Shown: positions 14,800-62,570 of the stretch, in pieces | How the letters are laid out: every line of letters begins with the position of its first letter | How positions within the stretch are numbered: position 1 is the first letter of the stretch | Assembly (NCBI GenBank): GCA_037833965.1 | Contig: AP031357.1 | Location: 17,318,001-17,382,000, forward strand | Origin: Marchantia polymorpha subsp. ruderalis | Taxonomy: Eukaryota; Streptophyta; Marchantiopsida; Marchantiales; Marchantiaceae | DNA length: 64,000 nt | Direction: 5' to 3' | Translations under genes and position numbers: made by a program | Notes under the pieces: model-generated | Databases searched by the model: none | The model's input: the letters and a program-made list of their open reading frames with translations, nothing else | What the model was told of the DNA's origin: nothing

Positions 14800-17577
14800 T
14801 CACTTGTTGCTATCCGCATTCAACACGAACTCCCCATACAAGTTCTTTGTAGCTATCAAAACTGTCATCAACAACGGGCCCATGATCGCACCCTGCAACA
14901 AGCATCAAGCAATAAGAATCAGATCGGGTGAATGACTTTTATCTGCATCTAGTCGATGATGTTAGTCAGATATAATCTAACATACATTTCTTCCTTCGTG
15001 CGATGTGTTCAGACACATTGCACGCTGAGGATCGTAGCAGATCCAGGAACCAGGACACATCATTTCAGAATAGGTTCCAATTTGCTGTGTCCCGGTGAAT
15101 TTAATCATGAAATGGGGAATTGGTATCCTTGCATTACGAGTCCCAATTCTTTCAATTTGCAACCGTACTTTTCGTTCCGTTAGTGCTGCGAATTTCTTGA
15201 CAATTAAGAAGCCATCAGTTCCTCTCACTGTGGCCGACTTGTGATAAGTAAAACTGCAGAGGAGGGCTGACAGAAATTCTCGTCAATGATTGACTGTGGC
15301 CATCGAACAATAAACACGCCGAGCATTGACATTCCACCGGTTGTCAACTTCCGCAAGCTTGACGATACGGCTCAAGGACCAAATTCGTGCGACTCGATTG
15401 CATTCTTGTATGGGCTGGCGGAATGAACAACAGCTGCTGCGGTGAGCATGAATGGGCGAATCGAGAAGAAGATAGAGGCAGCTTCTTACCTCTAGAGCCG
15501 GAGTGAAGAGCGCCATGCCGCCAGCGATACTGAGTCCGGTAAGGTAAGCGTTGTGCCCAGGAATTTCGCTGTGAATAGCGTCCACCCCAAAGTCCATAAC
15601 CCATATATGTACACACATAAGCACGATAGCCAGCACATAGTAACCCTCCATGGCCAGTTCTATACCCATGGGAATCGATGCGACCCAGTTGGGAAACAGG
15701 GGGAGCACAGCCTGCACCAGAGCGATCAGCGTCGAGCCGTAAAGGAAGTGGATGTCTGCGAACCGGAAGAGAAGCCACGTGAAAGAAGCTTGGAAGAAGG
15801 CCGTCTTCACAGTCGCAAGAAGCACGCTGCTCACGGTATGATCCAGAACGTTGGCGCAGCTCTTTCTGGTGGTCTCGGACAAGGGCACCATGTCAAGAAT
15901 TTGCTCCATCACTCCTCCGGCGCTGGACGTGATCAGGTAGTACAGCACGGAGAAGAAAACCACGGTTTGCGTCAGGAAGTTGAACAGACCGGCCGCCCCG
16001 GATGCAATGGTGCTCCAGACGAAGATGAGCATCGACGCGCCGCTCGCCACAAGGTTAGTGCCACTGTAAATGACCTTCTTTCCGACGTCCGAGGAGCTCT
16101 GAGCCAGCACTTTCGCCTTCTCCATAAAGTCCTCCCTTTTGATCTGGAAATGTTCCAAGAACAGGAGAAAAGCGGCCTCGATTTCCAACATTATACCCTG
16201 AACGTCGAATTCCCTCATCTTCGATTGCAATCCTCGCAGCTTCCCGACCAGAGGATGAGCCGATTCCGCATTGGCAGTTTTGTTGATGCGCTCGCCCTTC
16301 TTGTCCCTGTGTATGACTCCCATCAGAAACTCTTTGCCGACGTCCACCACTTCCGTCAAATTGTTGGCGGCAGCAAATGCATCGACCTGATGCATGAGTG
16401 CATCGTACCCCTTCACCACGTAATTGTCGATAAGCTCCGGCACTTTGTTCTCCTCGAGCCACTTGTTGAATCCCACGACCTCGGCGTAGTTGCTCTCCTC
16501 CAGATGAACCTTCAGCATCACCACAGCGTCCTTCCCTTCCAGCCCGACCTTGTACGAGAACAGAGCCAATCCGCCCACGGAGCCCAGAATCATCATGATT
16601 ATCAGTCCTACGGCCACGAGCGTGTGCAGGCTACTCGCGAGAGAACGCGAGATCCTCTGATTCGTAGCGATGGACACTCTCTTGATGGGGGCCACGGCCC
16701 ATTTCACCCAGCTCATCCTGCCGGCTGCCTGCCTGCCGTTCTGAGAAAGAGCACCTGTGAGATGGCCGACCTCCAGCCCAGTTCCTGCTGCATACATCAG
16801 AAGTCCGACGAAGGCCAAGAGCGACAGGTTGGCGGGTCCGAAGTACTCGAGCCCGAGCGTGAAGAAGGCGAAGGAGACGAGCCATTGGAAGAGCTTGGCG
16901 AATCCGACCGGCCTCGGCTGCCCTTCGCCCTTGCCCACAAAACTCAAGAACCCATCTCGGGCATCCAGCACGGTGCCCGCCAGAGCCTTGTAGATGGCGA
17001 TTGGCGGGGCGACCAACGACTCGACAAATCCGACCTGCAGAGGCTCGTTCCAGAACTTGACCAGCGCTTCTTGCACCTCGCGCAGGGGCATGGAGCACAA
17101 TACAGCCCACTGAATTGGCTTCCAAAAGTCCTCGAGCAGCCGGCCCACGCCGTAGAGCACCACCACCACGAGAGCCAATCCTGCATGGGCCATCGCGATG
17201 TAGATGGCCAGCTGGAAATTGGCCTCATTGAGTCTTCTTGGAATCGATTCTTCCGGAGGGAACAGAGGATTGTAATGCTCAATTACTCGCTGTTTGTCTT
17301 CGTCGTCAAACGCCTTGTCAACGCTGCTCTGCTTGCACGAATCTTGTTTCGCGTTCCGGGGAGTTCTTGCATCCCCCTTGTGCTTCTCCATCTCACGAGC
17401 TTTGGTGTCGTCGGCAGATCTTCCGAATGCGTTGTAGTGTAGCGCTGGGGAGCTGAACGAAGGGAATAGGCCAGTCGCCCGCGTGTTCAGTTGCAGTTTA
17501 GAAGCAGAATGAAACATATCGTTCCAAGATACAGGGCTGACGGGTCTGTTCCCATTCTCCACGTACTTGCCCCCCAT
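14800..17577 (-). CDS. TMEM245-like multi-pass membrane protein (AI-2E/PerM-type permease fold), 2 exons
   Basis: This is a member of the eukaryotic TMEM245 (C9orf5) family, which shares its C-terminal fold with bacterial AI-2E exporters; the substrate is unknown. Exon 1 (17577-15490, 696 codons) ends at a GAG|GTAAGA donor and joins in phase 0 to exon 2 (14892-14800), giving 726 residues. The spliced junction restores the family's ALE-GAIMGPL sequence and the tail KNLYGEFVLNADSNK. The first 120 residues are hydrophilic. The first membrane helix lies at about 124-147, followed by the conserved LLEDFWKPIQWAVLCSMPLR block. Other family blocks include RSLASSLHTLVAVGLI, SYKVGLEGKDAVVMLK, VLYYLITSSAGGV and AYLTGLSIAGGMALFTPALE. 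An upstream ATG is not needed, since the protein starts at a conserved NDMFHSAS-type N-terminal region. Without splicing the frame would run about 70 codons into the intron. Confidence 0.94.
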
Positions 17578-20500
17578 TACTTGCTCACACGGGCTAATTG
17601 TTTAAATGCTGTTCTATTCATTGATATCCAGATCTTGAAGTCTTCTGAGGGCGGATCATCTATCCACTGAAACCCCTCGCTCTAAGCCCCACAGTGCATT
17701 GTTTCAGTTTCCCTTGCCATGATGCTGCTCCTGCTGCTGATGAAGTACCGAGCACTCTGCTGCTGATCCATTGTCCATATCTCGCACCGAGGTCATCATC
17801 TTCCCTGATCCGCTTCCAATTTCCTGATCCTCACTCCAATTCAGATTATTGTGCTCGATCGTCCTGCTCCGTGACGTAATCTAGCTCTGCAACCCTTTCG
17901 TCTCACCAAAGTGCCGATGGCAATTTTGGTGAGAGAGAAGAAAGAGCATGTTAACTGGCAGTTGCCAACAGGAGTCGGTTTAAGGAGGTGGTGGTGGCAG
18001 CTACGTCCCTTCGGCAGAAGATTCACAGCCTACGAAGCTCATACAAAGACGGATCTGCATTGACTGAACAGTTGAAGGGAATAATCGTCTTGGTGACAGG
18101 AGAAGATCAGCCATGACTGCCGCCATCAGCAACAAGACACGGGCTGAGCAACGAGACAGCGAGCAGCGCAGGATCGCGAATGAAACCAGCAGGGCAGCAC
18201 ATCTGTGTGGGCCATGGTCCTCGGTAAAGTGCTCGTGGCTCTCGAATAATTTACTCCTATTCAGAAATTCACTGCCTCCAACAGTGACCTCGCCCCGGAA
18301 TGTGTCACGCAAGCTGTGCGACACTGAGAAAACACCTTGACCTTCTTCCTTCTTCTCTTTTTCGTCCGGTGGGGAGGAGGCCTCCACTCATCTGATGCAC
18401 GACTGTCTGTGTTGGTGAGACAATCTTCAGGATGTACTGTGGCCATGAACGTAGGAGAGCGCAATCGGGAACAAATGAGGGCGAGGTTCTCTTCAGAATT
18501 CCCAAAGTCTCCAGGCATGATTGTCTGTCTACGTTAGGCACAGGAGGTGTAAGTTGTGAAGGCAGGAGCGGAAAGTCCTCCTGGTCCACGTGTCGGACTC
18601 ACCACATGTACCCTGGGTCCCTGAGGGTGAACGTTCTCCAGCAGCCTGGCATCGCTAACATATGCCAAAGTTTGGCCATCACGATTCCAGCGGCTTCAGA
18701 ACTTCGGTCTTCTTCTTCATCCAGTCATCCCCGCAGTAGGAAATGAGCACTGCATGTAGAGGCAAGCCTGGTTTCGCGCCTAATTAGGAGGAACTTCATG
18801 TTCCCTTAGTGGTCCGATCTGGCGTTTATCTGCCCAGGGAAGAAACAAAGAGCGAGAACGACGTGCGGGACAAAGTTGTAGATTTTCCTTCTGTGGTGGA
18901 GCCTGAGCAGGCTGACTGAGGACAACTTCCTTGCTACTGATGACCTGATCTAATTGCTCTTTTGCATCTTTTCACCTATGTGTCTCTTCTCTTCTGCAGA
19001 ATGCTGTCCATGCAAGCGAGCATGCATTCTTCACTCCTTCCTTGCGTAGAACTTCTAAGCAACGAAAAGTGGAAAAGCTCATAATCTCCATGAGATGCAT
19101 TCCCTATCAGAGAGCTTTCTGACTCAAACAATCTCCTCGGAATCTTACTATTTCTGGCTTGTGAAGCCTGTGAAAGCAATCGCGAGGTCCATCTCCAAGT
19201 CGCCTGACAGCCCCGACTGTGGCACTCTCACTGCGAGAAACCTCCAAAGTAGTCATGTAGACTCTTACCACCTAATTTAGATATTCTACCGTACGCATCA
19301 CAGCCATGTACAAATAAGACTTAAGACCGACGAACAAATTCTCGACGAGATATTGATTTCACCCGTACAGTACTAAAGCTTGGACTCTCAACCCAGGTTG
19401 GAGAATTTTCGGTGGGTCCTCTAGGCACTCCTCCTCCGTGTTGTAAGGTGCGTTGCCAGTCAATCACTCCCCTTATCAACGAATGAAGACCTGCATCTGT
19501 CAAGACTGGTACATCTGACTTGTAGATCGCACAAAGGTATATTATTTGGTCCCTCTTCCCCGTAAGATCCCACAAGGGGAATGTAGTGATCTGAGAAAAC
19601 AGATCCAAATAATACATTTCACCCGACGAACTATGATCTTGAGCCTATCGAGGAACTTTTCGACAGATAATTTTATCTCCCGTGTCTAGAGGTGATTGAA
19701 TTTCAAGTCATGAATCGGCTAAAGCATGTATGGTACACTCTTTTGATCAAGTTTAATGTGTGAACATGAACCGAGTTCAATTACTCGGCCTTTACTTTCG
19801 TTGAGTTCAATCGACACAGTATTATTCCAGACAACTAGAACTGATTCTCCCGTGGGGTTAGATCTGATCTCGGGAACGACACAAATGGCATGGTTGTGAT
19901 TTGATTGGTATACAGGTCGAGTGATGCAAACAGGTATAGGACAAGACTTGCTTTTACACATCAACAGCGTACACTCCCGATGCCATGATGCTACTTCAGA
20001 TGAAGACCTTTTACCTCCAAATCACTGTAGGCCAGTGACAGGTGTGGAGGTTTTCCTCTATAGTGTTTGTGATTCTAGAAGGATTCATCAACTGGTCCAT
20101 CATGTCCACATTCTCAGGGTAGGGAGGTTAGTGGTGTTGCAAAAAAAGCAGAGGCCGGGAATATGCTTGAAGGTCTGCGAACGCAAATCAAAGCTACCTG
20201 TGTAGGACCAGGTGCGTTCCCGCCTTCCCCTTCTTTATGCGGCAGCTTATCCGATCCTTCAATCATTCAACTTTTATTTCTTGTCTCTTTTCTCTTTACT
20301 TGAAGTGTCTGTTCATTTTTCATCTCTTGAACGAAGGAAAAAAAGAACTCGAACTTCGGAAATAACCTGCTAGAACCTTGCATCATGCTGCAGTACAAGG
20401 ACGGAGGTGCTCAGATCTAGTGCAGGTACCGATTACTCGTTCTCAAGCCGGTCATGCCGTGGATTCTCACTACATGGTTCCTAAAACCATCATCAGGGGA

Positions 20501-25931: not shown

Positions 25932-28900
25932 ATGGAGTGGGAGTTGAGTAAGGAAAATGTGCAGCCGATGAAGTCAGGACGTAACGTGGAGGTTTTAAAC
26001 GATGCTCTCAAAGCGAAGGTGGAGGGCCACGCTCGTGTCAACATATTCGAGACTCAGCGCAGGTCTGTCCAGTTTCATCGAGCCAATTCTGGTCCTGCAA
26101 AACTGATTCTTACTCACACTGGATGGCCTTGTGCCTTCGCTCTGACCTCTATCTATGGGCCCGGTTCAGTTTCAACATCCACGCTTTGCTCTGTTCTAGC
26201 ATCAAGTATTTTAGGCGACTGACCTCTGATTATGGCTAGGATGAAGTACAATTCCCGAAACAAACAGGGCCATTTTTTGATGACCTTTCCTACTCGACCA
26301 CACTCTACCTCTTTCATTCGTTGTACATTTCTTCAGGGATTCTGTTTATGATGTCCATTCTAGCAGAATTTGTTTCACATTTTGCGATGTTCATCTTGTG
26401 ATATGAAGGCTGAGTGGGAATTTTAACCTTTCTCAGATCATCGTGAGTGTGTGATCTTCAGCTGGGCTTTTCTGACATGGTTCACCATGGGCGATTGGAC
26501 AGGCAAATGCTGGATGCAATCGAGAATTATGCGGGCGATGACCCCCTACAACCCTGGATTCGGTAGGTTCTGACTCTTGCTGATAATTTGCTTGAGAGAG
26601 CACCTCGAAGATATCAAAGTCCCCTGTTATTAGTTTCAACAGAGAAAGTGGTTCTAACCCGCTGATTTTCATCTCGTGTCTCATCCATGTGTGTTCGTGC
26701 ATGTTATAGTGTCCCAATTCACATGTATGCGTCTCTCTGATCATGCGCACAGGTGCATTAAGTGGGTTAAGGATGCCTTCCCAGCTGGTGGTGCACAATC
26801 AGAACTTTTGAAGCTGTTGGAAGGGTGCACACGCCAATTTCACAAAGATGAATTATATCGTAACGACGTGCGCTACCTCAGAGTGTGGGTGCAGTATGTA
26901 AGTACTGTATGAATAAGGATGACAATTCGGATCTGAAATAAAATTTTCAGCTTCTGTTCCTCCTTCAACCGGAACCGAGGCTTGAGTTGTTGAACTTTTC
27001 TCCTAATGCTTTGTTACCATGATGTGGTGTAAGGCTTGTTCTCTTCATGTGGTATTTTCAACTGCGTTTATTTTCTTAGATAGTTTTTTTATTTCCCTGC
27101 AGACCTGCATTGGCAGTAAATCTTCATCTGTTTCTCTGATGATTTCACGATTCTGACAATCACCCTGCAGCCCCATTCTTCACTAATCCCGTCCAATTTT
27201 TATGCGCAGGCCGACTGCTGCACTGATCCAAGTGATGTTTTCGCGTTCTTGGAAGCGAATGAGATTGGACAAACGTTTGCTCTCTTCTATGAAGCTTACG
27301 CTACATCCATGGAAGTTCGCAGAAATTTTAAAAAAGCCGACGAGATATACCGACTTGGCATATCAAGGTGATCAGCGCAGATATACCCATTACGAGCAGA
27401 CCTACAGTAGTCACAATTCGAGTTTCAAGGACAAAAAAGTCGGTGGTTTTCTGAACGTTGTCTGACCTAGTTCTTGCCTTTTTCTTCCCCAGACATGCAC
27501 AGCCCTTGGGCAGGCTGGAGAACATGTATAAAAACTTCCTCAGCAGAATGGTTAGGCGTGGTGAACGGAAGATTCGCGAAGTATGTCTCCCTTGCCCTCG
27601 ATGCCGTAATTTGGCCCCCAATTAAAAAACGAACGATCTCAATGTTTCTGGCTAGAAGTACCATTTACTGTCGCCCTGAGTGCAAAGAAACCAGCTCATG
27701 ACCTTGTGACTTTGACATTTTATTTAGGAACAGCAGCAGATATCTAGTGGCTCATTTTCAGAGAACGAGGCACCTTTTCGAGCATTTGGTCCAACCTCTC
27801 ACTTTTCAGGTAGATGGACATTTCCGCTGACTGGACTTGAGTTTGGAACTAAAGTAAGATAATAGTATGAACTTTTTCTTCTTCTTGATGTGTGATTCTT
27901 CCCCTCCTTGAATCATTTCGTCTGTTGAGAATCTTTTAGTATGACATCTTTCTCTATGGTAACAATCAGAACGGCCTCTTGATTGCTGTCAAACGGGATG
28001 AGGCAACTGTATACAGACCGAATATGTTGTTACCAGTACCTCAAGTGCAGAGTCCTCATTGTTGAAATATCTAGTGCGCTTAAACTAACCCAATCATCGT
28101 GCTCAACTGTCGAAGGAACTAGTGAGCAGCATTATTTTAGAGAACGGGGAAGGCAATCCTTGATGCAGCCCCCTCACCCGAGGTGAACATCAGTAATCCA
28201 GGCTCATTCACCTATTTGTTAAGTTGTGTTCAAATCCTTGTTTTGTCATAACAGATAGTAAGGTGTTTTGGTTTAACCTCAGTGACCTTCTCTTGGTCAT
28301 CTTTTCCTTTCGGTCAAATTTTATAGCGCGTTCGTTCGAAAATGCATAGGCTTACAATCCTCATGTCATTGGTCACGCAGAGGAAATAAACCCAAAACCG
28401 CCAAACTTTCGATATTTGTCGATCCAGAGTTTGAAAGCTCAAGAAATAACAGCACCCAGGACCTTCCTGGTGAAGATCCAGGCCTGTCTTCAAATCAATC
28501 TGCGGCCTGGTGGCACCTTCCTGCTGAAGCGGATAGGATAAAAGAAAATGTTCAGCAACCCACAAAGTGGACTGACGCAAAGGTTTGGAACTGTCTGGAA
28601 CCCTGTTCTCCCATTGTCTCAATTATCAGTATTGATAGAACTGTAAACCAGAGGGTTTGTGTTCAATAGTCAGGACGAGAAGTTGAAGTATTGAGTTTCG
28701 TACCTTGCTCTCAGCAGCTGTGTTGTTATATGCAGATAAAGCAGAAGCATCCATTCTCCCAAGGTCAGCAATCAGGACTAGAAGTTTACGTCGATGAACA
28801 ATTTTCAGAGTAAGTCTATGTGCCCCTAAGGAACGCGTGAAATATCTGTGTCGAAGTCTTTGGACTCTCCTGACGTTAAGTGTAACACACTAGTCAGCCT

Positions 28901-31900
28901 TCTATGGATCTTATTGGTCGAAACTCACCATCCGTCTCTCATCAATGCAGAGTAAATAGTCTTAGAGACCACTCTAAGCCTGGGAAGCCTGCTCCGCCCC
29001 CTATATTGAAACTGAGGCTCGAAGACATGCAAAGCATGAAAAGGTTTGAAGTTTAGGCCTTCCGAGTTGTCTGTATTATCAGCAATATACTATCTGGATC
29101 TCAACGGAACATGAACTGCAGTTTGAAGATGTCATATTTTCCGCTTGAGTACTGCGGCATGAAAATCATCTGTCACTGCCCTGACTGTATGATATGATAT
29201 TCTTTGATAGCAGGACCTCGCCACGCCTGAAAGGCTCTTTTCTGGACTTCGCATCCGCGGCTGTAGGTTCTGCCAGTAACAGTGTTGAGAGCCCTGGTAA
29301 GGGGATCCTTTACAGCATTGTTTTTAGAATTTTCGTTAATTGAAAGTGTGTTGGCTTGAAGCTGACATTGTAAGTAACCGACTTGGACACAGGAGTTCTG
29401 GCTGTTCAAGAGGCGTGCAACCTTCCAAAACCCCATTTGCCTAGCGTCCTTGCATATGACACGCACATGATCAACGAGAATGGAGAAGAGAAAAGTTTTG
29501 AGGAGGTGAGGTTAAAGTTGTGGAGAGAGTTTCATAAAGGTCTCATGGATCTGGACCAAGTTGATAACCTTGAAGTTCCCAGGGAGGAAGAAAGTTTGCA
29601 GTTCCTCTCTGGAGCTCAGGACAGTGATAGACCTGTCCAGTCAGAAGGTCAAGTCACTATCAAATCTTCTCCTTGCACGAGTATTCCTTCAACTCCGATG
29701 CTGGTAGAGACTGATACAGACACTGTGCAAAGTGTAAGGGACTCTTCCCCTAAGAATGGTGATATCATACTGGATGATGAAAAATGTCCGGGAGGAAGTG
29801 ATCGTCTTGATTACCTGGTTGATCCCCCAGCAAATGGATCAGCTACAACAGGGATGAACTCCACTATTGTTAGTGAGCAGCGAACTGAAGAAGGTTATTC
29901 CCAGCTTGAAGGTTCATCAGGTCGTCTATCGAGGGCCTCCACTTCCTTCTCAATGCAGGGTGATGAAACTATTGCAATTAAACGCTTCGCTGATGAGATA
30001 ATAGTTCTTGGCACAGACCCTCGGGTCAACAGCATAGACACAGGTAGTCATCACGGGCTTGTGGATCCAACAATCAATACGAAGGAGTGTGTAGCGGATA
30101 TCCTCGACATGTTCAACAAGCCTCTGGAGAGCGACAATTTAAGATCTAAATCCAGGGTGTCCAAGGATTCTAAGAAGCGTACGAGCAAATCTGGAGGCTT
30201 CCAAATTTTTGTTGATGATGATTTGCAGGTTGAAAGACATATGGAACCTTGCAAGAATGAAAAGCGGGTGAAATGCCCTTCTAGCAAATTTTCTGTAGCA
30301 GGTGAGAACAAACTCAGTGGCTTTCAAGTCTATATGGATGAAGATCTTGGAGGTAAACGGCCAGTATCTTTCAAAGGAAATGCTAAATCATCCATCAACT
30401 TGTCCAAGAAGTCTGAACCGGAATCAGGCAAGTTCCAGATATATGAGGATGAAAACTTTGCGGTCCAGCCTGCGAGACCCAAGCAGAGTCAGAGAAAGAC
30501 AGTTTCCAAATTATCTACCATTCAATCCAAAGACTTCCAGGTATTTGTCGATGATGAGTTTTGTGACCTAACCCCCGGCCAGAATGGAAAGTGTGGGGAG
30601 AATCAGAAGCTATCTGATGAAAATGCGGAGAACTGGAAAATTGTCGATAATGAGGATATGATTGACAAACGTTTGAAGGCCAAGTCAGTCGAAAAGAGGG
30701 CTACTAAATCTACTTCCCGGTCCTCAATCGATTTAGGTGTATGTGTTGATGAGGAATTCCGTGATTTGTCACTGAGTTCACGCTTATCAGAAGAGCAAGG
30801 TTTTGATATTTGCCCCGAGAAGTATTTAGACTCATCAAGAGCTAAGGAGAACGCTGGTGAAATTTACCAAGTAGAAGAAGCTTCAATTACTGTCGAAGGT
30901 TCAAGTCCTGTGCTAGCAGGAATTTGTTTGGTAAGTTGTGGGACTTGTGGGTCGTATATCTAGTGTGCTGAATGTGACTTATACACATCATGTCGAAGTA
31001 TGAAAGTAAATACGGTTCACTGAACTGCTCAGAGAAAAGCATTACCTGATTGGATTCTTGTGTTCCACTTTCAGGATCAAGTGCTTGAACGGGAAACGGC
31101 AGCACAGCTCAAAACATCTGAACGGTTTGAATTCTACCACTTGCTATTTGTTCTTCATTCATTTATTCCTATCTGTAAAGGAATTGTGCAGGCCACAAAA
31201 GCTGTTTCTTTCTACTCTTATGAACTTTAGAATTGTCGACGCTTTGCAGTGTCTACTATTTCTTCTTCATTCACTTTAGGATTCCATTTCTGCATTCCCA
31301 CAGCTACACCGTTGAAGGGAGTCAGTTGAATTTCTTCTTTGGCACCTGAACACAGAATCTAAAAGTTCTGAACTCCTGACTCTTATGCCCTGAAATGGAT
31401 GCAAGTTTAGCCACAATGGATACTTATTAGGTTTGAATTTAGTCATTAGTTTTTCCCTGTCGTTTTCTGAAGACCCTTGCCATGCCTGAGTGGTGCAACA
31501 AGAGAGGGATTAGAACTAGATGACTACTTTACTCTGAAGATGATCTTTCCTGCTGTGGAATATCTCCACATAATTGGGATTTAATCGGGGTCATGAAAGA
31601 AGAACTTGATTAACACATCAACCTCATCATACTAAATGCCCCATAAGATGTGACTGAAAGTGCGGTTTCTTTTGGCTATGGATCAAGCCAGTGAATTGCG
31701 GAAACAGTTTGAATTCGAACAGCAGAGTGCTGTTGAGAAAGAGAATGTTAATATGAGCAAAAAAAGTGTCTGTAGTATCGTGAAGTTTTGAAGGGGCTCT
31801 CTAATTTTCATTAAGAGGATAAATTCTTTGTGTAAGATTGTTCGCAATTGACCATAAACAATACTATAAACCATATGTTTTGACAGTTCCTATGATGTTA

Positions 31901-34900
31901 ACTGCAGTCTTGGATCTACGGCAATCAACTCCTTGTGTGTGACGAATATAGCAGAAACTGTTCCTATCACTCCTGCGGTTCATGTGGAGGTACTGTAGAC
32001 CAAAGTTTGCGTTCCCAGTAGTTTCTTCTTTGCCGTCCACTTAATCTTCGGTACTCCAACCATACGTACCTTAAAATATGAACAAAGTCTTAATCGAGAC
32101 GGTTGGTTTAAATTTACGAAGTAACTTCTTTTCTGCAGTGTATATAGTGCCATGTGCCGTTAAGATATAATCATGTACATCTTTCGTTTTATTTTGGTTG
32201 ACGACTTTTCTTTTTGGTTCGCTTCCTTGAGACAATTGAAATGTACGTAGGAAGAGGAAGACTCGGATGCTGCACCGTCACTAGAGAATGTTGATCCATG
32301 GGACGAAAGCACCATCAAAGGTCTTCTGTCAAGAATCCACTCGTCTTTGTCCAACTACGAGGTATGCTTGCACCTAAGGATCATTTCTGCGCTTCGTGTG
32401 GTCTACATACAAAAGAATGAAGTAACTGTTGTGTATAAAATTTGTCTTTATGTGTGTATCAGTAACGCATAGAAAAGGCAGTTTCCACTTTCAAAACTTT
32501 CATATCCAGAAGCTTGTTCTGAGTCTTCTAGAATGTGTTTGCGAGTCAGGAAATTCGGTAAGGGCGCTCATTGTTGGAACATTATGTGAGCTTCTGCTTG
32601 GTTAAATGTATGACAGGGCTTTTTTGAAAGTGAGACAAAGTATAGTGGCCCTCTTCCCACTTCGTCTTTGAGGGCCAGTAACGGCCGAAATAAGGATATA
32701 CACCTCGGTTAGTGATCTTTCACCCTTCGCTTGGTCCAATGATCGATCTCTGCTGTAGCATGCCTCGATGTAGCCTTTGTGAAATTTTCTGTTCTTCTTT
32801 TCAGTTTCACCCTTTTTGTGTGTCGTCACGTTCTATTTAAAGACACTTCCATCTCATACTTGAAATGTTAGAATAATATCTAATTAGAATATTGGTTGAA
32901 AAAACTACATTTCAGTGGCAGGCTCCCTCCCTGTCGTATTGAGGTCTTATGGGTGCTATGAATAATCTGATGCTTCAAATTTCTTCACTTTAGAGTTAGT
33001 TAATCTTGGCATTTGATGAGTTGTGGAAGTAATATCAATGTCAACCTTGACAGGCAACAATACCTATCGTCTCACGGGATGTATTGGTGAAGGTGCTTTT
33101 GCCCATGTTTTCGAAGCTGAAGATGCCGATGATGACTTTTTTGACGATCCGCCTAAAGTTGCACTGAAGGTAATCGCAACTTTTCACTTAAGCAGCGCCA
33201 AAGCAACAATACGTACACATTGCCCTTATCCCACTTTAGAACAAAAAGCAAAGCCGTCAACGAGTAGATTGGATTCGTTTGAATACTCAACAGACAGGCA
33301 CCACCATTGTTTTAGATTGTTACCACGTAGGTGCGCTCACTCCAATATATATATAATGTCCCGGCATTAATGACATCCACTCGAGTTTTATTTAAAATTT
33401 TTGTAACCTAAAGCTCGGGCTATCTCCTATTGCACTTCAAAGACAACGTATACAACATGTTCTGAACTTAGACTATCGATGCATGAGTAGATAACACTAT
33501 TCTGATTTTCCAACACTTTTGACACCTCTTAATGCAGTTCCAAAAGCCCGCGTGCCCTTGGGAGTTCTACATATATCGACAACTGGATAGGCGTATATCT
33601 GAAGAAGATGTAAGCAGAGATGATCTTTGGATCCTTCGCTTCACGTTAATTAGTCGAGATTTAGCTATTGATAGTGTACATCAATAGGTTCTGGAATCGT
33701 TAACGGACTCAGTGGTTATCATCTATCTCCGAATTAAACATTTTTCCATGTTCATGACCTCATCGTTCCCTTCGTTCGCATCATCTTAAATAGAGACGGT
33801 ATTTTGGCAAAGCGCGAAGAATGCACCTCTACACGAATTGCAGCTTCCTTATCTGCGACCACGGAGACAAAGGCACTCTTCAGGTAAAGATGAACTGATC
33901 CTGTTATACCACTTGCATCTCCTGAAAATCGATGAAGCTTTTACAAACAAGTACAGATTTCTTACTGGAGATGGCTATGAATTTCTTTCCACAATTGTTG
34001 CAGGATGTTGTGAATGCGTACCTAGCAGAGCATCTACACATGGAGGAAGCTATGTGCATGTTCTACACCATAGAACTGCTGCGCATGCTGGAAGTCTTGC
34101 ATTCCGTTGGGATCATCCATGGTGATATTAAACCAGACAACTTTCTCATGCGAGACATAGACGACAGGTAACTAGCAGCGTCAATCAAATAAACTTTCCT
34201 AAGTTTTAAGCGTCTGAAGAATCTCCTTCTACATCCTCTTACTCATCCAATGTTGAGTTGTCGCAGCATTAAAGTCGAGGATTGGGCTCCTGATCATCCT
34301 GGTTGTTGGAAATCCCAAGTAAGTATTTGATCATGTACTCTTGATTTTTTATTGATTTGCTCATGAGATAGAACTTAAATCTCGCTTCCTCTTTATTTGT
34401 GCTCTTCCAGGACTGTGAGATAGAAAAGTCTTGCCGTGCGAGACTTTTCAATCACAGTCTTTGATTCTAAATGTATTGATCCTCATACATCGAAGCTGCT
34501 ATGGGGTACGCAGGGTTTATGCCTGATTGATTGGGGTCGAAGTATCGACACAACTCTATTTCCAGATGGTACAGAGTTTCTGGGTGACTGCAAGACTGAT
34601 TCGTTCAGATGCCCAGAAATGTTGGAGCGGCGTCCATGGACTTTCCAGGTAGAACTGTACCAACAGAGAGAATTCTGCGGTCATCCATCCATGTATAGTT
34701 AGTTCACCTAGTCCACCGAGAAATTTTTTAGCTCGAAATCTTTTCTTGCGGCTCTTGAAAGTCTTAGAGGAACTCAAGCTCTCAACTAAGATTAAGCTTC
34801 ACTTCATGTGCAGGTCGACACTTTTGGCCTGTGCGGTGTAGTTCACTGTTTGCTACATCAAAGCTACATGCAAGTGGAAAAGGTCAAGACTGCGGACGGA

Positions 34901-35271
34901 CAGTGTCTTTATCGTCCGAAAGCTGCCTTCAAGCGGTAGGTGTATCCTGGCCATGTTCCGCGAATAACTACAGTGGCTTAAAAACCTGCAAGACATAGGC
35001 TGTTGTCTCATCGAATCTCATCATTTAAGTGACTGACACTAATACCCATTATGCTAACATAATTGTCGCATTTTCCAGGTATTGGAATGTGAAGCTATGG
35101 AAAGAGCTATTTGATAATTTGTTGAATGTCAAGGATTTTTATGATCGTGAAGTTTTGATACGGTTGAGAAAAAGCTTCGAGAACCACCTGGTCGAGAACA
35201 ATATGGGGAAGAAGCTGAAGGGGTTCGTAAGAAAGCAGAACATTATGATATTCGAGTCCCGCCGCCGATAA
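25932..35271 (+). CDS. MADBUB spindle-assembly-checkpoint protein (undivided MAD3/BUBR1 plus BUB1 kinase)
   Basis: This is a kinetochore checkpoint protein that inhibits APC/C-CDC20 and carries a BUB1-type kinase. The model has about 26 exons: 25932-26062, 26503-26562, 26753-26897, 27210-27367, 27493-27580, 27728-27809, 28017-28182 (uncertain acceptor), 28381-28582, 28736-28809, 28951-29043, 29214-29296, 29393-30930, 31075-31124, 31692-31784 (uncertain donor), 31908-31989, 32251-32361, 32510-32557, 32617-32707, 33054-33169, 33538-33609, 33794-33883, 34004-34167, 34267-34318, 34424-34648, 34814-34935 and 35079-35271. It encodes about 1,440 residues. Order: KEN1 in ELSKENVQP (7-9), MAD3/BUB1 TPR domain (about 44-194), ABBA-KEN2-ABBA (about 286-367, KEN at 331-333), GLEBS BUB3-binding motif GEEKSFEEVRLKLW (about 458-471), ABBA-like array (about 697-880), then the kinase from about 1099 with G-loop GEGAFAHVF, VALK lysine, HGDIKPDN and IDWG, as in BUB1. 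In flowering plants these modules are spread over separate BMF genes. Confidence 0.94.
28406..28804 (+). other. ABBA-KEN2-ABBA cassette in MADBUB
   Basis: Two ABBA-like motifs, LSIFVDPEF (28406-28432) and LEVYVDEQF (28778-28804, next exon), bracket the second KEN box in RIKENVQQP (KEN codons 28541-28549). This arrangement is the known CDC20/APC/C-binding cassette of BUBR1 and MAD3 proteins. A dibasic/aromatic segment AAWWHLP lies just before KEN2. Confidence 0.85.
30199..30759 (+). repeat. Array of ABBA-like motifs inside the large MADBUB exon
   Basis: Five related motifs follow one another in frame: FQIFVDDDL (30199), FQVYMDEDL (30322), FQIYEDENF (30433), FQVFVDDEF (30535) and a degenerate LGVCVDEEF (30733). 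The first four match the ABBA consensus Fx[ILV][FHY]x[DE]. All share an acidic continuation ending in Leu or Phe, and spacing is 102-123 bp for the first four. The linkers are Lys/Ser-rich and appear disordered. The pattern looks like tandem duplication of a ~37-residue unit. Confidence 0.85.
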
Positions 35272-59522: not shown

Positions 59523-60529
59523 TCAACTCCTAGAAAATTTTTGAGCAATCTCCAGATCCTTCATCTTGAATTCCGCATTGAGAGATCTCTTTAGTTCTCT
59601 AATATCTTTGATATTCTGAGTTGCAATCGGATTGTCATCCACATATAGAACGAGGTAAATGCATGATCCATCATGCAACTTCTTGTGATACACGCAGCAA
59701 TCATACTCACACTTCCAATAGCCTATCTTTAGCATGAAGCTATCGAACCTCTTGTACCACTGCATCGAAGACTGCTTTAGTCCATACAAGGACCTCTTCA
59801 ACTTGCACACGTAGTCTTCTTTTCGAGAAACTTGAAACCCCTTCGGTTGGTTCATATATATCTCCTTCTCCAACTCTCCATGTAGAAAAGCTGTCTTCAC
59901 ATCTAGTTGTTCAAGCTCTAAGTCTTGGTGTGCAACCATTGCTAGTAGCACCCTGATTGAAGTATGTCTGATCACCAGTGAGAATATCTCGTTGTAGTTA
60001 ACTTCTTCTATCTGACTGAACCCTCTTGCAACTAGTCTTGCTTTATACTTGACGCCTTCCGCTGCAATGATTCCTTCCTTTCTTCTAAAAACCCACTTGC
60101 AAGTGATTATCTTTCTCTCTAGTGGCAGTCGTACAAGATTCCATGTTGAGTTTTTGCTAAGAAATTCCATCTCTTCTTCCATATCGGCAATCCATTGTGC
60201 TGACTCGGTGCAGTAATCGCAGCCCGATAGGTAGATGACTCATCTTTCACCTCTTCGGCTACTTGCAAGGCATATCTCACCAAGTAGTCTTTCTCTAGTC
60301 TTGTAGGTAGCTTCTTATCCCTCCGTGTGCGACGTGCAGTAAAACTCTCGTGTACCAACTCCTTTGGTGGTATATACTCTTTAGAGTCTTTCAATTCTTG
60401 CTCTTTCGTTTTTGGCTGTGATGAACCAAGCACTTTAGAATCTTTAGGATCACTCAATTCTGAACTTGCATCCACCTTACTCTTTTCAGCTCCAACCTCT
60501 ATCTCCACGGTATTAGATTTCAGCATCAA
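59523..60529 (-). pseudogene. Copia reverse transcriptase region
   Basis: A 219-codon frame (60182-59523) contains the RT landmarks WVFRRKEG, YKARLVARGFSQ, VKTAFLHGELEKEIYM, KLKRSLYGLKQS and catalytic LVLYVDDNPIA, where many Copia elements have YVDDMLI. An overlapping frame (60529-60119) carries the connecting region after integrase (RTRRDKKLPTRLEKDYL). A frameshift separates the two, and the frame ends prematurely after IAQKFSRS. Confidence 0.9.
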
Positions 60530-60577
60530 ACTCTCATCAAAGACTACAATTTTGCTAAATATAATTTTTCCATCCGA

Positions 60578-61140
60578 TCATATCTTGTAACCCTTCACAC
60601 CTGTTTCATAGCCCATGAATACCCCCTTCTTCGCCCTCGGTTCTAGTTTGCAATCATCCACATGATAATAGGCAACACAACCAAAAACCTTGAGATTCGA
60701 GTAATCTGTTGTCTTTTGGGACCATATTTCAATAGGTATCTTGCATCCAATGCCAGTATGAGGACTCCGATTTACAAGATAGCAAGCCATAGAAACTGCC
60801 TCTCCCCAAAAACGCCTAGCAAGACCTGCATTCGAAAGCATACATCATGCCTTTAATAAAAGTGCCTGATTCATCCATTCCGCTACATCATTCTGCTGAG
60901 GTGTCCCTCAAACAGTGTGATGGCGAGCTATTCCATGATCCTTGCAGAATTCATCGAACTCCGATGAACAAAACTCCAAGCCGTTGTCCGTGTGCAGCCT
61001 CTTCACCATCTTTCCCGTCTGATTCTCCACTAGTGTCTTCTACTCCTTGAATTTGCCGAATGCATCACAAATATCCAAGTCATCCTCGAATAGTCGTCAA
61101 TAATGCTCAGAAAGTATTTATGATCGCCAATCGACTCAAC
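60578..61140 (-). pseudogene. Copia integrase region, with stops
   Basis: Minus-strand translation contains GTPQQNDVAEWMNQALL (the conserved ..TPQQNGVAER.N segment before the last catalytic Glu region), interrupted by stops on each side near 60911 and 60846, then RRFWGEAVSMACYLVNRSP and LKVFGCVAYYHV. The catalytic integrase core is not intact. Confidence 0.82.
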
Positions 61141-62570
61141 TCAAAATGGACCCCAACAATCACTATGGATGTAATCTACAGTGTCTTTTGTTCTATGAAC
61201 CGCCTTTGAAAACTTGCTACGCTGTAGCTTCTCAATCACGGAGTGCTCACAAAATCCTAGGCTCTTGGGCATGTGCCCGACGAGATAGTCTTTCTTGTGA
61301 AGTTCCTGCATTCCACGTTCACTCATATGGCCGAGCCTCATATGCCATAGCCTTGTTTGATCAGCTTCCTGAATCTTGGCTGAGACAATTCCAACTAACC
61401 CTGTGATTGCCGAACCTTGCAATACATACAAAGTCTTATCCTTGATTCCCTTGAGCAGTACCTTCGAACCCTTGTAGACACATAGATCTCCACCTTCACC
61501 TTTGAAGCTAAAACCCTTCTTGTCAAGTAGACTTAGAGAGATCAGATTCATTGTGATGCGTGGTACGTGTCTAAACTCGTTTAAGGTACATGTCTTCCCA
61601 TCATGGTTCTTGGATCTAAGTGACCCGATTCCTATTACCTTGCAAACAGCTCCATTCGCCATGTGAACGGAACCTCCATATGTTTGGCAATAGCTTGAGA
61701 ACAACTTCCTATTAGAGCAGATGTGATAAGATGCTCCAGAATCAAGAACCCACATATCCGACTGGTGTGTGACATCATCCATCGATAGAACATAATCGTC
61801 CTCAGACGAACTACCCTTTTCTACCATGGCGGCCGATCTGTTTTGTCCTTGTTGTCCTCGTTTCGGGCAATCTCTTTTCCAATGCCCCTTTTCCTTGCAC
61901 CAAGCGCAAACATCCTTATGTAAGTTAGAACCAGAAAACTGCTTTTTATTGTTCTTCTTATTCTTGCTTCCTTTGTTCGCCATCAACTCGGAAGCATGGT
62001 ACTCCGTGCTTGTGCTTGTGCCCTTGCCCTTCGGACGCATCTTTCTAGCATGAAGAGCGGATTTCACCTCTTCAAGTGATATGCTTTCCTTGTTAACAAT
62101 AAAGCGTTGAACAAAGTTCTCGTATGATGAAGATAACGAGATCAATGGAAGGAGTGCATCATCCTCAAAATTCACGTTCTCGTAGATGTTACGAAAATCA
62201 AGAAGAAATGAATTCAATCGATCAAGGTGGTCTTTGAGGATCGTTCATTCATCCGCAAAGTGAATAACCATTGCTTTAACATCAGCTTGCTGGTGAGTGA
62301 CTTCGTCATGTAAAGACTCTCCAGCTTGAGCCATAACGCAGCTGCCGTCTTCTCTCATGCAACCTCCATGATCACGTCATCCGATATGCACAACATGATG
62401 TTTGAGTGTGCCTTCTTCTCCTTCAACTTGTACTCCGATGATGCAACATCCATGCCTACCTTATCTGTGGTAAGAGGTGCTCATATGCCTTGTGATTTCA
62501 ACAGGGCCTCCATCTTGAGCTTCCACAAACTGAAGCTATTCCCTACAGTGAACTTCTCAATCTTCAACAT
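61141..62570 (-). pseudogene. Copia gag and protease region, with frame breaks
   Basis: Gag starts at ATG 62570 (MLKIEKFTVGNSFSLWKLKM), is interrupted near 62480-62220, and continues in an open frame from 62217 to 61141. That frame holds the zinc knuckle CAWCKEKGHWKRDC, the aspartic protease active site WVLDSGASYHI and the GAG-pre-integrase segment ending LWHMRLGHMSERGM with its metal-binding His. The start of integrase (DCWGPF) is at its end. Confidence 0.88.

Follow-up and report, generated by a model that had tools for sequence, protein, structure and literature searches.

In human BUB1, an ABBA motif and a KEN box lie directly C-terminal of the CD1 segment, and this ABBA motif is thought to place CDC20 near MAD1:MAD2 (PMC8391104, PMC7614552). 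In a human assay, mitosis lasted 110 min when CD1 was missing and 370 min when ABBA was missing, so the ABBA motif weighed less than CD1 in this assay (PMC5472792). The range of the BUB1 ABBA is given as metazoa (Di Fiore 2016, PMC5179498), and little checkpoint weight was attributed to the C-terminal ABBA of human BUBR1 (Di Fiore 2016, PMC5179498; Tromer 2016, PMC5204127). Series of such motifs have been described as well: the available text of Tromer 2016 (PMC5204127) lists ABBA repeat arrays in MAD of Physcomitrella, basidiomycetes and stramenopiles, and it describes many cases of additional ABBA motifs close to CMI and clusters 'ABBA-other' with kinetochore features. Marchantia is absent from the main text of this paper.

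For Marchantia polymorpha one BMF gene, MpBMF (Mapoly0009s0056), has been reported together with binding to CENP-C and KNL; the main text of that report contains no words beginning with ABBA or KEN (PMC12526889). The window analyzed here, a stretch of 64,000 nucleotides of Marchantia polymorpha subsp. ruderalis DNA at positions 17318001-17382000 of contig C8, contains a MADBUB gene on the plus strand, which is probably MpBMF.

Anatomy of the MADBUB gene

Assignment to the MADBUB family was based on a TPR domain, a preceding KEN box and a kinase domain. Exon 1 (25932..26062) encodes the N-terminus with KEN1 (MEWELSKENVQP), which was aligned with EWELSKENVQP of human BUBR1 and precedes the TPR domain. 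The latter, the Mad3_BUB1_I region, is encoded by exons 2-5 with their introns (26503..27580). Using the spliced N-terminus as query, PF08311 was matched with 158.7 bits (E 7.4e-47, cut-off 31.4), and BUBR1 and Mad3 chains were retrieved from the PDB at E of about 1e-38. Exon 7 (28383..28582) carries ABBA1 (LSIFVDPEF) and a KEN2 between Trp residues (WW...IKEN...KW), two flanking Trp being the signature of KEN2 (Tromer 2016, PMC5204127), and ABBA2 (LEVYVDEQF) is located in exon 8 (28736..28809). An equivalent of the ABBA1-KEN2-ABBA2 cassette of human BUBR1 is thus present at 28383-28809. The spliced query ended at exon 8 because the junction from an exon near 28950 to the following large exon is ambiguous. 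Between 28950 and 29445 more than one acceptor preserves the frame and alternative joins are possible by reading; the start of the large exon at 29393 is one of several possible acceptors.

The large exon (29393..30930) ends at a GTAAGT donor, and its stop-free frame comprises 529 amino acids from stop to stop. Within this uninterrupted frame, a GLEBS-like stretch and the CMI/CD1 motif are followed by the ABBA array and then by a third KEN box. The stretch at 29467..29523 (MINENGEEKSFEEVRLKLW), which we take by its motif to be GLEBS-like and a putative BUB3 site, was without match in PDB or Pfam searches. The third KEN box (RAKENAGE, 30844..30852) lies C-terminal of the array. It is followed by a pre-kinase segment (DPWDESTIKGLLSRI, 32251..32358), presumably CDII-like and without a Pfam match, and by the exons of a predicted kinase domain with HGDIKPDN and IDWG (33030..35270, limits approximate). 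PF00069 matched one of the three kinase pieces tested (34001-34168, 34.8 bits versus a cut-off of 31.7); the rest was assigned by reading. By exon reading, the order in the whole protein is KEN1, TPR, ABBA1, KEN2, ABBA2, GLEBS-like stretch, CMI/CD1, array, KEN, pre-kinase segment and kinase. A structure prediction of the large exon with AF2, run without an alignment, had low confidence nearly throughout (mean pLDDT 35.6), and the array segment may be disordered.

The CMI/CD1 motif VDPTINTKECVADILDMFNKPL (30061..30126), a putative MAD1 site, is located upstream of the ABBA motifs of the same exon. Its single match in the PDB at E<=10 was 7b1f_C, the CD1 of human BUB1 in the MAD1 complex, at a value that is weak by itself (E 0.23, 14.9 bits); the alignment with human BUB1 CD1 has nine invariant columns, with PT, TKE, I, MF and P common to both. 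The AF2 run without alignment predicted a helix at residues 229-241, with low confidence. At 30064-30072 an Asp occupies the position of human BUB1 Ser459, two residues before the retained equivalent of Thr461. Ser459 is the CDK1 priming site for Thr461 (PMC8391104), and the Asp in its place could make priming unnecessary. Six-frame genome searches for the MAD1 gene with PF05557 and with the C-terminal domain of human MAD1, a method that is weak for short exons, gave no matches; we take this as a limit of the exon-wise search and not as absence of the gene.

A six-frame search of the genome with PF08311 scored three candidates, and the locus described here was the sole match, in two exons; a locus count of this kind is a lower bound. 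The gene is the only MADBUB (BMF) detected in the genome and apparently unduplicated. Elsewhere in the window, pieces of a Copia-type LTR retrotransposon (RVT_2, Pol_BBD, gag_pre-integrs, Retrotran_gag_2) are present at 59523-62244 on the minus strand, and a minus-strand open frame of 772 codons at 15283-17601 probably encodes a multipass membrane protein; its match to AI-2E_transport is weak and below the cut-off.

The ABBA array in the large exon

The sequence-only reading had placed four clean ABBA motifs and one degenerate copy in a single exon, and all five were found where it had put them, in one stop-free frame. Copy 1 is FQIFVDDDL (30199..30225, core FQIFVD at 30199-30216), copy 2 FQVYMDEDL (30322..30348, core FQVYMD at 30322-30339), copy 3 FQIYEDENF (30433..30459, core FQIYED at 30433-30450) and copy 4 FQVFVDDEF (30535..30561, core FQVFVD at 30535-30552); the degenerate copy 5 is LGVCVDEEF (30733..30759, core LGVCVD at 30733-30750). 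The four strict copies and the degenerate one are contained in 561 bp, all of them outside the KEN2 cassette, and therefore form a repeat array at a threshold of at least three ABBA motifs in series outside this cassette; the threshold is our own choice and does not come from the available text of Tromer 2016. The distances from start to start are 41, 37, 34 and 66 residues, or 102-198 bp, in agreement with the spacing of about 100-200 bp given before. Together with the two motifs flanking KEN2 the total is seven, as had been counted. A further motif, FDICPE at 30802, fits a relaxed pattern only and was left out of the count.

The copies in the array begin with Phe in four of five cases, whereas both cassette motifs begin with Leu and are therefore non-canonical. 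The ABBA form Fx[ILV][FHY]x[DE] fits the four strict copies; copy 5 and both cassette motifs lie outside it. The extended pattern F-x-[IV]-[FY]-x-[DE]-[DE]-x-[FL], proposed earlier as common to the motifs, holds for four of the seven. The other three are covered by the looser [FL].[IV][FYC].D[DEP].[FL], which fits all seven but was written post hoc, after the motifs had been seen. The Asp at P6 is the single residue that is invariant across the seven aligned motifs.

To estimate the occurrence by chance, the 512-residue exon was shuffled 20000 times with its composition retained. The pattern F.[IV][FY].[DE] occurs four times in the exon (mean expected 0.017), and the extended F.[IV][FY].[DE][DE].[FL] also four times (mean 0.0003); at least four occurrences were found in 0 of 20000 shuffles for either pattern. 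Even the loose [FILV].[ILMVP][FHY].[DE], with four observed and a mean of 0.30, reached this number in only 6 of 20000. The claim of an array in a MADBUB protein whose copies have an acidic-hydrophobic tail in common is borne out far above chance. A DNA pattern for F-Q-[IV]-[FY]-x-[DE][DE]-x-[FL] had 12 matches in the genome (241.5 Mb, 9 contigs), four of which are the array copies within 362 bases while the other eight are scattered; the same pattern run backwards as a control had three. Since the pattern was designed on the array copies, it is the clustering and not the matches themselves that carries weight.

PF16500, the APC/C-binding region of cyclin A, matched the large exon with 27.2 bits (cut-off 24), and the best stretch was located over copy 1. 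With single copies, copy 1 reached 17.7 bits and copy 2 13.5 bits, both below the cut-off; copies 3, 4 and 5, ABBA1 and ABBA2, each run alone, were without match, as was a control consisting of the first 222 exon residues (29395-30060). We take the match to reflect ABBA similarity. A reading of the exon as cyclin was rejected: there is no cyclin box, and PF16500 is the sole Pfam family matching at E<=1. When the genome was searched in six frames with PF16500, no candidates emerged and even the exon matched by hmmscan was missed, so that this search is uninformative. A profile search of the seven motifs against the PDB (E<=10) returned two glutaredoxin chains only (E 0.55 and 0.57).

An origin of the array by tandem amplification had been suggested, and the DNA supports this in the cores and not in the linkers. 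The copy cores make up a direct-repeat family with four members and a unit of 37 bases, in which the last three have 65, 65 and 76% identity with the first. Among the linkers, six pairs were compared for homology and none was better than 5% of the shuffles, and the only entry of Tandem Repeats Finder was an 18-base repeat at 30877-30911. A possible decayed copy, WKIVDNEDM (30634..30660), lies about midway between copies 4 and 5. At this site 13 of 15 bases match the core of copy 4, a value equalled by 4 of 300 codon shuffles; at the protein level 595 of 5000 shuffles did as well and a different site gave the best match, and the copy is only suggestive. It is 96 and 102 nt away from its neighbours, and its inclusion would give steps of 123, 111, 102, 96 and 102 bases. 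For copies 1-4, pN was 0.13-0.28 and five of the six pairs showed pS of 0.69-1.09, while the pair of copies 3 and 4 behaved in the opposite way, with a pS of 0.13 and pN above pS; the comparison is biased, as the cores are short and were chosen for matching. An old tandem duplication with subsequent loss of linker identity would be the simplest reading, although it is unproved.

CDC20-like genes and their ABBA pocket

The CDC20/Fizzy WD40 family had 96 matches in the genome, and two loci, one on C4 and one on C2 with its neighbours, exceeded the cut-off. From their sequences we read the loci C4:135826-136829 and C2:16085339-16086816 as CDC20-like genes and a gene on C8 as CDH1-like. The two CDC20-like genes share 187 residues with human CDC20 over 365 aligned positions and 173 over 302, respectively.

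For the ABBA pocket we used a list of positions obtained by our own mapping of Arabidopsis CDC20.1 residues (PMC9357983) together with human mutants (PMC5179498). The human residues Y240, L261, R262, W276, Y279, I280, V295 and R296 correspond to Y, V, R, W, P, V, V and R in the C4 copy and to H, M, R, W, T, T, V and R in the C2 copy. R262, W276, V295 and R296 are retained in both genes, and the receptor arginine is therefore present in each; positions 279 and 280 are changed, to Pro-Val in the C4 copy and to Thr-Thr in the C2 copy. The pockets of the two genes also differ from each other, with Y240 and Pro279 in the C4 copy versus His240 and Thr279 in the C2 copy. In human CDC20 an exchange of R262 to Ser lowers the binding of ABBA peptides, and the pocket pair was mutated together, printed as Y179E/I280Q (PMC5179498); in our alignment the Tyr of human CDC20 is at position 279. 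In Cdh1-Acm1 the P6 Asp pairs with an Arg of blade 2. Arabidopsis CDC20.1 has His at the positions of human Y240 and Y279 (PMC9357983), and because it also departs at the pocket, plants may read ABBA somewhat differently. In both CDC20-like genes the residues of the KEN site, D184-Y185-Y186, are retained.

Proposed role of the array and comparison with known systems

The array is better read as a BUB1-type CDC20 slot than as a lengthened BUBR1 cassette. The BUBR1-type cassette is a separate module upstream, and the sequence-only reading had missed that the array follows the CMI/CD1 motif and precedes KEN and kinase. The order CMI/CD1, ABBA, KEN and kinase is that of human BUB1, which has one ABBA in this slot compared with four and a weak fifth in Marchantia. 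Common descent of the array with the human BUB1 ABBA is doubtful, because Di Fiore 2016 limits the latter to metazoa.

The position after CMI/CD1 and before KEN makes recruitment of CDC20 at kinetochores, beside MAD1:MAD2, the natural reading. Binding of CDC20 by the array is plausible, and it may be multivalent, as had been proposed. Taken as a whole, we consider it fairly probable that this is a CDC20-binding ABBA array in the BUB1 slot which loads CDC20 beside MAD1:MAD2 at kinetochores. Phosphorylated CMI would hold MAD1:MAD2 at unattached kinetochores, the array would load CDC20 at high local concentration beside it, and MAD2-CDC20, followed by the mitotic checkpoint complex, could form efficiently on one scaffold. 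Binding, multivalency, the kinetochore role and any effect on checkpoint strength are what we infer from sequence. In favour of the reading are the number and clustering of the motifs, the PF16500 match of the exon, the BUB1-like order, the ABBA motifs near CMI and the kinetochore features in Tromer 2016, the invariant P6 Asp and the retained R262. Against it stand the changed 279-280 pair of the pocket, the weak support of PF16500 for the individual copies, the PDB profile search with its glutaredoxin matches only, the lack of a MAD1 match in the six-frame searches and the low checkpoint weight of the C-terminal ABBA in human BUBR1. A purely BUB1-type role also fits badly with the array of the moss, which sits in the MAD paralogue (Tromer 2016).

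The same moss array (PMC5204127), and the presence of KEN1, ABBA1, KEN2 and ABBA2 on the same polypeptide, would suit a service on the cytosolic side, where the array would extend the BUBR1-type pseudosubstrate function of the MCC by capturing extra CDC20 or APC/C-CDC20. We regard this as rather unlikely, as the array is found past the GLEBS-like stretch and CMI, toward the kinase, and the C-terminal ABBA of human BUBR1 is minor in the checkpoint (PMC5179498). The array might instead bring CDC20 to kinetochores for dephosphorylation and activation of the APC/C, an anaphase-promoting role reported for the ABBA of C. elegans BUB-1 (PMC5717348), but no sequence feature favours it over MCC assembly and we judge it quite improbable. 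Finally, the copies could be what remains of an ancient tandem duplication in a disordered region, retained largely by chance and contributing little function past one or two motifs. The graded decay, from four clean copies to a degenerate and a possible decayed one with steps of 96-123 bases, and the lack of residual homology between linkers are consistent with such relics; the high synonymous and lower replacement differences in five of the six pairs, biased by the choice of cores and opposite in the pair 3-4, argue against them, and we hold this explanation to be very unlikely.

Loading of CDC20 beside MAD1:MAD2 can be extended tentatively to a whole relay on one unduplicated polypeptide. 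With MAD1:MAD2 docked on CMI, MAD2 would receive CDC20 from the adjacent 'loading strip', made up of some five ABBA motifs, and the product would be captured by the KEN1-TPR-ABBA-KEN2-ABBA portion, either of this molecule or of one next to it. Checkpoint gain would be set by how many motifs the strip has, and with the later moss duplication the strip would have gone to the MAD copy. A MADBUB that exists as one gene and has such a strip next to its CMI lends itself to asking if more CDC20 sites near MAD1 strengthen or speed the checkpoint, and Marchantia is a member of a plant group with good genetics.

The novelty of the array, implied by the sequence-only reading, has to be reduced, since ABBA arrays in this family were already published (Tromer 2016, PMC5204127). 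As in Marchantia, a MADBUB-family protein carries a row of ABBA motifs in those cases. The moss array belongs to a MAD paralogue that arose after duplication, in contrast to the Marchantia array, which is located after CMI in the only MADBUB detected and in a kinase-bearing protein. If both arrays are homologous, the array predates the moss duplication. In the open-licence literature searched, we found no published account of an ABBA array in a liverwort. The Marchantia array is a further, well-placed example of a known array type, and its novelty is below that claimed before. The MELT arrays of KNL1 are likewise short motifs repeated along a checkpoint scaffold, but they bind BUB3 complexes and not CDC20.
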